This document shows positions 39,053 through 43,531 of a stretch of DNA of 64,000 nucleotides, piece after piece. The notes beneath the pieces are model-generated. The model was given only the letters and a program-made list of their open reading frames with translations, did no database searches and had not been told where the DNA came from. The DNA lies in NCBI RefSeq assembly GCF_900110455.1, contig NZ_FOIS01000004.1:62001-126000 (forward strand), in the 5' to 3' direction. Within the stretch, counting starts at the first letter, position 1. Each line of letters begins with the position of its first letter. The stretch is from Natrinema salifodinae. GTDB taxonomy: Archaea; Halobacteriota; Halobacteria; Halobacteriales; Natrialbaceae. The translations under genes and the position numbers were made by a program.

Positions 39053-39850
39053 TCAGGCTTCGATCGCCAGGCCGGCTTCGGCGAGCGCGTCCTCGGTCGA
39101 GAGGTCGTCGTGGACGACGCCGGCGACCGCCCGCGCGATGGCCTCGGGGTTCTCGTGCTGGAAGATCGACCGGCCCATCGAGACGCCCGCGCCGCCGGCG
39201 TCCATCACGCCGCGGACCATCTCGATCGTCTGGCGGTCGGTGCCCTTCGAGCCGCCGGCGATGACGACCGGAAGGCGAGTCGATTCGACGACGTGCTGAA
39301 AGCTCTCGGCGTCGCCGCTGTAGCCCGTCTTGACGATGTCGGCGCCGACCTCCTCGGCGAGACGGACCGCGTGCCCGAGCGCTTCGGGGTCTTCGGGGTC
39401 GACGCCGGGGCCACGGGCGTAGGCCATCGCGAGCACGGGCATGCCGAGCCGTTCGGCCGCCGCGGTGACCTCGGAGAGCTGGGTGATCTGGTCGGGTTCG
39501 TGGTCGGAGCCGACGTTGATGTGGAAGGAGACGGCGTCGGCGCCGACGCGGACGGCCTCCTCGACGGTGCCGGTCATCCGTTTGTCACTCTCGTCGGGCC
39601 CGATCGTCGTCGAGCCGTTGAGGTGGACGATGTAGCCCTGGTCGTTTTTATTGTCGTGGACGCGGGGCGCGACGCCCTTCTGCGTGAGGACTGCGTCCGC
39701 GCCGCCGCTGGTCACGCCGTCGATGGTCGATTCGATGTCTTTCAGCCCCTGGACGGCGCCCATCGTGAGCCCGTGATCCATCGGGACGATCACGTAGGAG
39801 CCGTCTGTACCGATCCTGTCGAGTCGCGCGTCGATGCCTGTGGTAGTCAT
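39053..39850 (-). CDS. 2-amino-3,7-dideoxy-D-threo-hept-6-ulosonate (ADH) synthase
   Basis: 265 aa, class I aldolase of the DhnA/archaeal FBA family. It makes the ADH precursor of 3-dehydroquinate from aspartate semialdehyde and a deoxy-ketohexose phosphate. The start DGSYVIVPMDHGLTMG and the Schiff-base part DIVKTGYSGD near residue 170 fit the family. It could also be a fructose-bisphosphate aldolase by sequence alone, but its place as last gene of the trpCBA operon (24 bases after trpA) favours the aromatic role. Confidence 0.88.
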   Translation of the reverse strand: MTTTGIDARLDRIGTDGSYVIVPMDHGLTMGAVQGLKDIESTIDGVTSGGADAVLTQKGVAPRVHDNKNDQGYIVHLNGSTTIGPDESDKRMTGTVEEAVRVGADAVSFHINVGSDHEPDQITQLSEVTAAAERLGMPVLAMAYARGPGVDPEDPEALGHAVRLAEEVGADIVKTGYSGDAESFQHVVESTRLPVVIAGGSKGTDRQTIEMVRGVMDAGGAGVSMGRSIFQHENPEAIARAVAGVVHDDLSTEDALAEAGLAIEA

Positions 39851-39874: not shown

Positions 39875-40801
39875 TTATGGCTGTTCTGGTTCCGGTGTAT
39901 CTTCCGTATCGACCGTGATAGAGTCCGCGCCGCGGCGCGCGCCTCGCTTGAGTTCGCGGGCCTTGGCCTCGAGTCGGTCGACCGCGTCGCTCGGGTCGTC
40001 GCTCGAAGCGATGTTCTGAGACTCCGTTTCAGTGCCCGCTGAGCCGTGCTCAGCGATGATGTCCACGAGCGCGCTGCCGACGATGACGCCGTCCGCGCCC
40101 GATTCGACGATTTCGGCGGCGTGGTCGCCCTCGCTGACGCCGAAGCCGACCGCCTTGGGCACGTCGTACTCGGAGAGGCGCGCCAGGCTGTCGTGGGTCG
40201 CGGTCGAGACGTTTTCGCGTGCGCCCGTGGTTCCGAGGCGGGCCTGGACGTAGGCGAAGCCCGAAACCTGCGACATGATAGCATCGAGGCGCTCGCCCTC
40301 GGTCGTCGGCGCGATGATGAAGACGAGATCGAGCCCGTTGTCGTCGCAGGCCCGACGCAGCGGGTCGGCCTCCTCGGCGGGGAGGTCGGGGACGATGATT
40401 CCCGAGAGGCCCGCGTCGGCCGCCCGTTCCACAAAGGGCCGCACGTCGGGTTCCGAACCGTACTGGAGGATCATGTTGTAGTAGGTCATCACCAGCAGCG
40501 GCGCCTCCGTCTCGAGGTCGTCGACCAACTCGAAGAACCCCTCGGGGGTCGTGCCGGCCTCGAGCGCGCGGTTGATCGCCCCCTGAATCGTCTGCCCCTC
40601 CGCGATCGGCTCCGAGAACGGCAGGCCGAGTTCGATCAGATCCGAGCCGCCCCGATCCAGGGCCTCGACGTACTCCTTGGTGTCCGCGAGGGACGGATCG
40701 CCGGCGGTGATATAGGTGATCAGCGCCGGGTGGTTCTCGCGGACGGCCGCTTCGACGTCGCTGTCGTATTCGCCGGGGGCGGATCGCGATTCGTCGCTCA
40801 C
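39875..40801 (-). CDS. trpA: tryptophan synthase alpha subunit
   Basis: 308 aa. TrpA cleaves indole-3-glycerol phosphate to indole, which passes to TrpB. The catalytic Glu is in [11 protein letters not shown] near residue 58. The second catalytic acid, Asp60 of E. coli, is Glu here (PIAEG). This conservative change seems usual in haloarchaea. The phosphate loop GVSEGDHA and [10 protein letters not shown] are present. About 30 acidic residues extend the C-terminus. Its first four bases overlap the end of trpB (40798-40801). Confidence 0.96.
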
Positions 40802-42075
40802 GAGTCGAACACCTCCACGTCCGGCGCGGCCGCAAGGTCGCGTTTCTCGGTCTCCTCGAGAACGGTCTCCAAGTCCTTGTCGCCGCGCCCGGAGACGGTG
40901 ACGACGACCAGGTCGCCGAGGTCCTCGTGGGCTTCTTCCAAGTACCCCAGGGCGTGGCTCGACTCCAACGCCGGGATGATCCCCTCGAGTCTGGAGAGCC
41001 GGTGGAAGCCGTTGAGCGCGGCCTCGTCGTCGACGCTCGTCGGTGTCACGCGACCGGTCTCGACGAGATGCGAGAGCTCCGGCCCGACGCCGGCGTAGTC
41101 CAGCCCCGCGCTGACGCTGTGGGACTCGACGATCTGGCCGTCCGTGCTCTGGAGGAGTTTCGTCATCGCGCCGTGGAGGACGCCGTCGGTCCCCGTCGAG
41201 AGCGTCGCGGAGTTTGGCGCGACGGCCTCTTCCTCGTCGATCTCGAGACTCGAGCCGCCGGCTTCCACGGCGACGAGGTCGACCTCTTCATCGGGAACGA
41301 AGGCGTGGAACGTCCCCATCGTGTTCGAACCGCCGCCGGCGCAGGCGACGACGCTGTCGGGAAGCCGACCCGCCTGCTCGCGGACCTGTTCGCGGGCCTC
41401 CTGGCCGATGACAGCCTGGAAGTCCCGGACCAGCTTCGGGAACGGGTGCGGGCCGACGACTGAGCCGATCACGTAGTGCGTCCGCTCGACGGTCGTCGCC
41501 CAGTCGCGCATCGTCTCGTTGATCGCCTCCTTCAGGGTCCCGCTGCCGGTCTCGACGGGATTGACCTCGGCCCCGTTCATCCGCATCCGGTAGACGTTCG
41601 GCCGCTGGCGGTTGACGTCCGTCCGGCCCATGTAGATCTCACAGGGCATATCGAGGTGGGCCGCAGCCATCGCCGTCGCGGTGCCGTGTTGCCCGGCGCC
41701 GGTCTCGGCGATGATCCGCTCCTTGCCCATGTACTTGGCCAGCAGGACCTGGCCGAGTGCGTTGTTCAACTTGTGCGCGCCGCCGTGGACCAGGTCCTCG
41801 CGCTTGAGGTAGACTTCGCGGTCGTAGCGTTCGCTCAGCCGGTCGGCGCGCTGGAGCGGCGTCGGCCGGCCGCCGAAGTCCCGCATCCGCTCGCGGAACT
41901 CGTCCATGAAGCCGTCCTCGTTCTCGAGGACGTACCGCTCGTAGGCGTCCTCGAGTTCCTGCAGGGCCGGCATCAGCGCCTCGGGGACGTACTGGCCACC
42001 GTAGTCGCCGAAGGTACCCGTGCCCGCCTGCCCGGTGTCGCTCTCGCCGTCGCGGTCGCGCTCGCCTGTACTCAT
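40798..42075 (-). CDS. trpB: tryptophan synthase beta subunit
   Basis: 425 aa, PLP enzyme joining indole and serine to tryptophan. The PLP Lys lies in [14 protein letters not shown] near residue 105, the phosphate loop in [12 protein letters not shown] near residue 245, and the start [17 protein letters not shown] is typical of TrpB1. The first 20 residues are an acidic halophile extension. Second gene of the trp operon, 49 bases after trpC. Confidence 0.97.
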
Positions 42076-42124: not shown

Positions 42125-42928
42125 TCACTCCGTCGATTCCGATCGCGGCTCCGACTCCGCTTCCGCCCGCGCGAGCCGCCGCGTGTTCTCGGTCACGTCG
42201 CTATCGCCCGCGCCGTGGTCCATGATGGCGCTGCCGACCAGCAACGCGTCGGCACCGGCTTCGCGCATCTGCCGGACGTCGGCCGGCGACGAGATCCCGC
42301 TCTCGGCGATCAGCGTTACGTCATCGGGTACGTGGGGAGCGACCGACTCGAAGGTTTCGAGGTCCACCTCGAGCTGTGCCAGGTCGCGGTTGTTCACGCC
42401 GATGAGGTCCGCGCCCGCCTCGACGGCGGCCTCGAGTTCCGCGCGGTCGTGGACCTCGACCAGCGGCTGGAACCCGCGCTCGCGAGCCGCGGCGATCAGG
42501 CCGTCGAGATCCTCGACGAACCTGGCGATCAACAGCAGCAGGTCGGCCTCGACGACGTCCATCCCGTCCTCGTCGAGGACGAAGTCCTTCCGCAGGACGG
42601 GGACGTCGACGGCCTGGCGGACGCGAGTCAGCGCCTCCGGCGAGCCGCCGAAGTGGGTCGGCTCCGTAAGGACGGAAATCGCCGCCGCGCCGCCGTCGAC
42701 CATCGCTTGTGCGAGTTCCACGGGGTCGTCCGCCCGAGTTCCGTCGGCCGTCGGACTCGTCGGCTTCACCTCCGCAACGATCGGGACTCGCCCGTCGGCC
42801 TCGGCCCGGGCCACCGCGTCGGGTAGCGAGCGCGCGTCGACGGCCACCTGACCGTCGCCGCCCGACCGCTCCCGCGCGGCCGCAAGGATCGACTGCACCG
42901 CGGGCGCCAGCTCCGTCTCGGAGTTCAT
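42125..42928 (-). CDS. trpC: indole-3-glycerol-phosphate synthase
   Basis: 267 aa. Catalytic residues are in [14 protein letters not shown] (Lys), [14 protein letters not shown] (Lys) and the C-terminal [11 protein letters not shown] and LLVGSAIMD strands of the TIM barrel. The start at 42928 (MNSETELAP) was chosen because it matches the family and sits just behind the operator; the longer frame to 42958 would run through the TGTACA sites. First gene of the operon trpC-trpB-trpA-ADH synthase. Confidence 0.96.
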
Positions 42929-42931
42929 TGT

Positions 42932-42957
42932 TGTACATCGACGTACGCATATGTACA
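42932..42957 (-). promoter_or_regulatory. trp operator: three GTAC-centred sites 10 bases apart
   Basis: TGTACA (42932-42937), CGTACG (42942-42947) and TGTACA (42952-42957) have GTAC cores starting at 42933, 42943 and 42953, exactly one helical turn apart. The array starts four bases before the trpC ATG at 42928 and overlaps a TATA-like ACATATG about 24 bases upstream. In Methanothermobacter the regulator TrpY binds TGTACA boxes at trp promoters. A similar repressor here is inferred; no such regulator gene is seen in the window. Confidence 0.6.
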
Positions 42958-43060
42958 AAAGGCTTGCGTCATTCGGATGTGCAAGACGGGACCGATGCGG
43001 CGGGCCCCTTTAAGAACGAGGACCGGCGCCTATTCAAGTCCGGATCGCCTACGAACGGGT

Positions 43061-43531
43061 ATGGAGGACGTTACGGACGCCGGAATTTACGTGCGGGAGT
43101 CGCCGTACCTCGACCGGTACGTCGAGATCGGAGCCGCCAGCGGGCGGGTCCTCAGCGTCTCCTTCCCCGACGTGCCTGAGGACGACGCCGACGACGACCA
43201 TCCCGTCCTCGATCGGGTCTTCGAGTACCTCGACGGGCTGGAGCCGGTCACCTTCGACGACGTCCAGGTCGCGATGACCATGCCCACCGACCAGCGCGCG
43301 GTCTTGGAGCAGGTCCGCGAGATCCCCTACGGCGACCAGGTCGACGTCGATACCCTCGCGCGGATGACCCCCAACCTCGATCACGAGGACGAGGACGACG
43401 TCATCCTGGTCCGGACCGCGCTCGACGAGAACCCGGCACCGATCCTGATTCCGGACCACCGCGTGCGCGACGGCCCCAGCGCCGCGCCGCCGGACGTCGA
43501 ACAGAAGCTGCGTTCGATCGAGGAACTGTGA
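43061..43531 (+). CDS. alkyltransferase (MGMT)-like protein without active-site cysteine
   Basis: 156 aa. The C-terminal half follows the MGMT/Ogt DNA-alkyltransferase pattern: REIPYGDQVDVDTLAR, then DENPAPILIPDHRV. The active motif PCHRV reads PDHRV, so the methyl-accepting Cys is Asp132. The recognition helix, normally with the Arg finger, is acidic (DHEDEDDVILVRTAL). It therefore cannot repair O6-alkylguanine by the usual mechanism, and DNA binding is doubtful. It may be an alkyltransferase-like (ATL) relative or a repurposed fold. It is divergent from the trp operon. The start at 43061 precedes the conserved region best. Confidence 0.85.
   Translation: MEDVTDAGIYVRESPYLDRYVEIGAASGRVLSVSFPDVPEDDADDDHPVLDRVFEYLDGLEPVTFDDVQVAMTMPTDQRAVLEQVREIPYGDQVDVDTLARMTPNLDHEDEDDVILVRTALDENPAPILIPDHRVRDGPSAAPPDVEQKLRSIEEL

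Follow-up and report, generated by a model that had tools for sequence, protein, structure and literature searches.

Three GTAC dyads spaced exactly 10 bases apart precede trpC in the window, the whole 64,000-nucleotide stretch of haloarchaeal DNA analysed, and they very probably represent a functional trp operator through which a tryptophan- or aromatic-responsive repressor would act, a reading well supported by comparative evidence. The whole explanation, in which the operator of trpC-trpB-trpA-ADH synthase is read by a repressor, likeliest TrpY, shared with the trpDFEG operon, is considered probable. If true, the first committed aromatic enzyme would be slaved to the tryptophan branch, which is an unusual wiring. 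With an operator placed so precisely throughout the class and only one candidate repressor, the question can be put to a direct test in Haloferax volcanii.

Layout of the trpC promoter and its operon

The initial annotation had reported GTAC at 42933, 42943 and 42953, two of them as TGTACA, and the window sequence agrees. The outer boxes are complete TGTACA sites, whereas the centre box is CGTACG (Table 1). On the minus strand the triple reads TGTACAtatgcGTACgtcgaTGTACA; it overlaps a TATA-like element, and its 3′ end lies 3 bases before the trpC ATG, which is located at 42928 in the full minus-strand promoter CGCAAGCCTTTTGTACATATGCGTACGTCGATGTACAACAATG. The four genes that follow, claimed earlier to be one unit, each score above the curated NCBIfam cut-off, and 80 of 80 named haloarchaeal loci show them colinear. 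From ORF coordinates, trpC and trpB are separated by 49 bases, trpB and trpA overlap by 4 and trpA is separated from the ADH synthase gene by 24. The trpC intergenic region is shared with a divergent small protein gene (window 42977-43531, plus strand) that has no NCBIfam match, and the same arrangement is found at loci L343 and L344.

Table 1. Features of the trpC promoter and of the genes downstream, in window coordinates
Feature	Position	Strand	Evidence
Candidate operator, 26 bp, TGTACATATGCGTACGTCGATGTACA (minus-strand reading)	42932..42957		three GTAC dyads 10 bases apart; 10/13 dyad pairs complementary; register kept in 79/79 family upstreams
Box 1, TGTACA, overlaps TATA-like element	42952..42957		79 relatives: TGTACA 69, TGTATA 8, TGTACG 2
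Box 2, central GTAC	42943..42946		GTAC in 69/79; else GTCC, GCAC, GTTC, GTGC, GTCG or GAAC
Box 3, TGTACA, ends 3 bases before trpC ATG	42932..42937		TGTAC in 78/79, TGCACA in 1
TATA-like element CTTTTGTA, merged with box 1	42954..42961	-	position and conservation; putative promoter role
BRE-like element CGCAAG	42963..42968	-	position; 1.61 bits per column at -40..-29 in 79 relatives; putative role
trpC, indole-3-glycerol phosphate synthase	42125..42928	-	NF041303 430 bits, cut-off 380; ATG at 42928
trpB, tryptophan synthase beta	40798..42075	-	TIGR00263 599 bits, cut-off 392
trpA, tryptophan synthase alpha	39875..40801	-	TIGR00262 241 bits, cut-off 102
ADH synthase (2-amino-3,7-dideoxy-D-threo-hept-6-ulosonate synthase), archaeal aromatic pathway entry	39053..39850	-	TIGR01949 357 bits, cut-off 299

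In the proposed mechanism, the trpCBA-ADH synthase promoter would have the three boxes as its operator. A repressor of TGTACA-like dyads would occupy all three on one helix face, covering the stretch that runs from the TATA element almost to the start codon of a predicted (nearly) leaderless trpC, and would block TBP/TFB or RNA polymerase when tryptophan, the presumed ligand, or aromatic amino acids are plentiful. A related array would work at trpDFEG, and therefore the first committed aromatic enzyme would be switched together with the tryptophan branch. The likeliest repressor would be the single TrpY-family protein of the genome.

Chance, coding sequence and conservation

As judged from the comparison of genomes, the triple is a conserved promoter element and not a product of chance. 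The window contains 206 GTAC, and the sole triple at 10-base spacing is that of trpC; in the whole 4.27-Mb genome, GTAC-6-GTAC-6-GTAC occurs once, again before trpC. The GTAC density leads one to expect 0.002 triples per window, and 400 Markov-simulated windows gave two triples at 10-base spacing altogether, an equally spaced triple of any spacing from 4 to 40 being present in 12 of them. TGTACA is unremarkable alone, with 3 occurrences in the window versus 1.5 expected. A search of 194 class genomes for the same pattern gave 75 places, 45 of which are trpC promoters, each in a different genome; 42 of these belong to the window's family, where 49 genomes were searched and the assignment was made by coordinate comparison, and 3 to other families (L335, L343, L344). 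That the spacing is accidental, or that the region is coding, with trpC read from an upstream TTG, is therefore scarcely credible. An in-frame TTG at 42958 would indeed carry trpC through the boxes in this genome, but an in-frame TGA stands at -21..-19 (spacer ATATGA) in most relatives, so that the region cannot be coding in them, and chance is opposed both by the low expectation and by the recurrence at trpC.

GTAC pairs at 10 bases were also considered as a genome-wide regulon marker and were rejected, since the genome has 35 of them and no enrichment; about 44 would be expected if the GTAC density of the window held throughout. The inspection covered 32 of the 35 together with the window pair at 578, the remaining two being the trpC pairs, and most pairs lie inside long open frames. 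A palindrome search with three mismatches in the same genome gave nothing above chance level except trpC.

The family set consisted of 81 genomes, 80 of them with trpC, and 79 upstream regions were read; one genome (G072) was left out as it has no trpC match and another (G059) as its match is partial. Of the 79 regions, 63 carry the exact triple. In 6 others the first box is TGTATA and the other two are still GTAC, and in the remaining 10 one or two boxes are changed and the register is kept. Loss of the spacing in relatives had been named in the initial annotation as a ground for refutation, and the claim has survived it. In the 79 relatives, the mean information is 0.12 bits per column at -150..-60 versus 1.88, 1.77 and 1.98 at boxes 1, 2 and 3, respectively, with a slight bias toward the register in these column counts because the ATG was picked by best fit to a typed consensus. 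Seventy-eight of the 80 named haloarchaeal loci were counted; L144 and L159, though in register, were kept out of the column counts made on these loci and of the matrix described below because of an offset match start. Beyond the family, a looser form occupies the same register in other haloarchaeal families (Haloferax, Halobellus, Halorussus, Halorubrum and others), with TGTGCA, GTCC and TGGACA variants, so that GTAC is the form of the window's family and not the rule.

The conservation might reflect the core promoter only, namely, the BRE, TATA and initiator of a nearly leaderless gene, with boxes that no regulator reads. Box 1 does lie over the TATA-like element and box 3 near the start; however, boxes 2 (-18..-15) and 3 (-8..-5) fall outside the BRE/TATA and yet are conserved as strongly. 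In most relatives the dyad pairs are complementary: 66 to 79 of 79 for the outer six, 78 and 69 for the inner two. In addition, the control promoters of TrpY genes have no such array, and the boxes of trpD are placed differently relative to TATA. This reading is very unlikely. The spacers between the boxes are also conserved, but asymmetrically; given the mostly complementary outer and inner pairs, the trpC site is better described as a dyad frame with fixed nonpalindromic spacers. Comparative evidence supports the earlier proposal of an operator-like site covering the TATA region and the trpC start.

The second trp operon and the candidate repressor

The same sites had been suggested as something to look for before other trp genes, and related phased boxes were found before trpDFEG. 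The trpD promoter of the window's own genome carries GTAC, GGAC, AGAC and GTAC at -47, -37, -27 and -17 from the ATG, the array being degenerate in the window's genus, with GTAC at only two of the four positions. A matrix built from 39 distinct trpC sites was applied to 28 trpD promoters (of the 30 loci returned, L213 and L214 were set aside, being second matches or below the cut-off). It placed 22 of the 28 above all 100 of their shuffles, and in each of the other 6 one shuffle was equally high. The own trpD promoter scored 19.7 versus a shuffle maximum of 5.9, and L195, from a different family, reached 33.3 with a perfect GTAC triple directly before the trpD ATG. TrpY promoters served as a control in the scoring, but shuffles are the better one because the TrpY promoters are more GC-rich. 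The trpD alignment was made by regular expression for 10 of the 28 promoters, and the others were read by eye. These findings suggest that one regulator reads both trp operons, the trpD boxes being the strongest sign of it. In the own genome (L212), a tRNA-like gene, recognized by eye, is divergent from trpD, and a promoter-like CGAAACCTTCAATT is conserved there in many relatives.

It has been reported that, in Halobacterium salinarum, lack of aromatic amino acids induces all seven genes of the trp branch and raises OE1472F, the homolog of ADH synthase encoded in the trpCBA operon, 12.5-fold (PMC4162585). On this account, the homologous operons in Halobacterium are repressed by their end products. 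Since the medium of that study contained no aromatic amino acid at all, tryptophan is not singled out as the signal. The earlier claim that tryptophan controls entry to the aromatic pathway holds in part: the ADH synthase gene is in the trp operon and is induced in Halobacterium, whereas the role of tryptophan alone does not follow from those data (PMC4162585).

A TrpY-type regulator, also proposed as something to find in the genome, is present there as a single protein (NF053754, 242.9 bits, cut-off 180; G000:C4:633213-633704, minus strand). All 194 class genomes have a family member above the cut-off, and because of this universality co-occurrence does not single out TrpY. Fifteen members from several families share 74-91% identity with the own TrpY, and the N-terminal residues are near-invariant across families. 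The own protein gives a weak ACT-domain match, and all 16 aligned members show ACT at an E-value of 0.1 or lower; a search with the ACT domain (PF01842) was rejected as a route to TrpY, since the TrpY gene was not among its 7 matches at E 0.001. TrpY is the leading candidate for what binds the trpC boxes, a role for which the sequences mildly favour it. Its gene is not linked to the trp genes (G000:C4:633213 versus C4:104928 for trpC), no phased boxes were found in its own promoter, and no trp gene was found within about 5 kb of TrpY in any of the 20 members of the phylum sampled outside the haloarchaea. Near the TrpY-family gene, hisB is located in 22 of 30 haloarchaeal loci (L222 among them), which might hint at a wider role in amino acid metabolism.

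The trp operator may instead be bound by an Lrp/AsnC-type regulator, such as LrpA2, or by another unnamed factor, and this is a possible, although unlikely, reading. In Halobacterium, LrpA2 rises 14.9-fold when aromatic amino acids are missing, and the authors of that study propose for it a role as pathway regulator (PMC4162585). The window's genome has 10 PF01037 matches, and the lack of linkage between TrpY and the trp genes also fits such a regulator. Conversely, a 10-base-phased GTAC array is present in the own promoter at 0 of the 10 PF01037 loci, and TGTACA is the TRP box of the Methanothermobacter thermautotrophicus TrpY. Moreover, the near-invariant N-terminus of TrpY fits a site conserved throughout the class.

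Known systems, tryptophanase and other phased sites

With the M. thermautotrophicus system, the present one shares a TrpY-family protein, TGTACA boxes over a trp core promoter and a presumed repressor logic. In the Methanothermobacter type, trpY is divergent from the trp operon and is autoregulated through shared boxes. Both features were looked for here and neither was found, and on this ground the haloarchaeal system is not classed as a trpY-trp system of that type. It further differs in that the pathway is split over two operons, with the ADH synthase gene in one of them, and in its three dyads at exactly 10-base spacing. Though classed apart, it may work like the Methanothermobacter system.

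In Thermococcus, a TrpY homolog exerts no control of the trp operon, which counts against TrpY at trpC, and the haloarchaeal homologs form branches separate from those tested (PMC6737238). Tar (TK0271) of Thermococcus kodakarensis is an activator of trp/aromatic genes which, like the predicted repressor, reads a palindrome of related half-sites, TGGACA-N8-TGTCCA, upstream of the BRE/TATA (PMC6737238). In contrast, the outer boxes at trpC are 14 bases apart and lie over and downstream of the TATA, reaching the start, and they do not form the Tar palindrome. The haloarchaeal Lrp/AsnC regulators (LrpA1, LrpA2, Lrp) are likewise amino-acid-responsive, and LrpA2 responds to missing aromatic amino acids (PMC4162585); unlike at trpC, no phased GTAC site was seen ahead of any of the 10 PF01037 loci in the window's genome. 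The available text of PMC2894021 and PMC8229911 mentions no trp site for these regulators.

The promoter of tryptophanase is a standard Haloferax tool. In the tryptophanase set, 30 loci were returned and 29 promoters examined, with the exclusion of L372, whose match begins only at residue 97. Phased GTAC pairs or triples were present in 7 of the 29, all in one genus, and the trpC matrix placed 15 of the 29 above all their shuffles. In the own genome, phased GTAC was not found in the tryptophanase promoter, which the matrix did not place above its shuffles (5 of 100 equally high). Eight genomes of one genus in family f12 (L364-L370 and L337) have exact 10-base GTAC pairs or triples 50-72 bases before the tryptophanase start; these arrays lie before the TATA region, in the place expected for an activator.

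It is conceivable, but rather improbable, that one near-invariant TrpY-family protein runs a class-wide regulon by position, repressing trpCBA-ADH synthase and trpDFEG from phased dyads between TATA and start and activating tryptophanase from an array upstream of the TATA. If true, one archaeal regulator would flip tryptophan synthesis and breakdown in opposite directions. No description of how the haloarchaeal tryptophan and aromatic pathways are switched was found in the literature searched, though the induction has been published.

Among the 75 places of the class-wide search, 3 precede tryptophanase in one genus (L336-L338, NF009709 being the tryptophanase family at L336), and among the remaining 27 are a repeat array (L334), a GTACA microrepeat (L339) and scattered sites. 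The repeat array (G233:C1:808747) is satellite-like, made of GTACAGTCCA units, and phased GTAC triples occur at three more places in that genome. Upstream of two mutually similar EamA-type transporter genes, assigned by eye and from different families (L274, G000:C3:269599; L345, G176), a 10-base-phased pair or triple of GTAC lies close to a TATA-like element, which may be chance. In two genomes of genus g60 (L340, L341), a phased GTAC triple is located at the start of a DpsA-like ferritin gene, also named by eye. At L342 (G168:C4:13662-13705), five GTAC at exact 10-base spacing separate a TATA-like element from the start of a gene for a small, probably membrane, protein.
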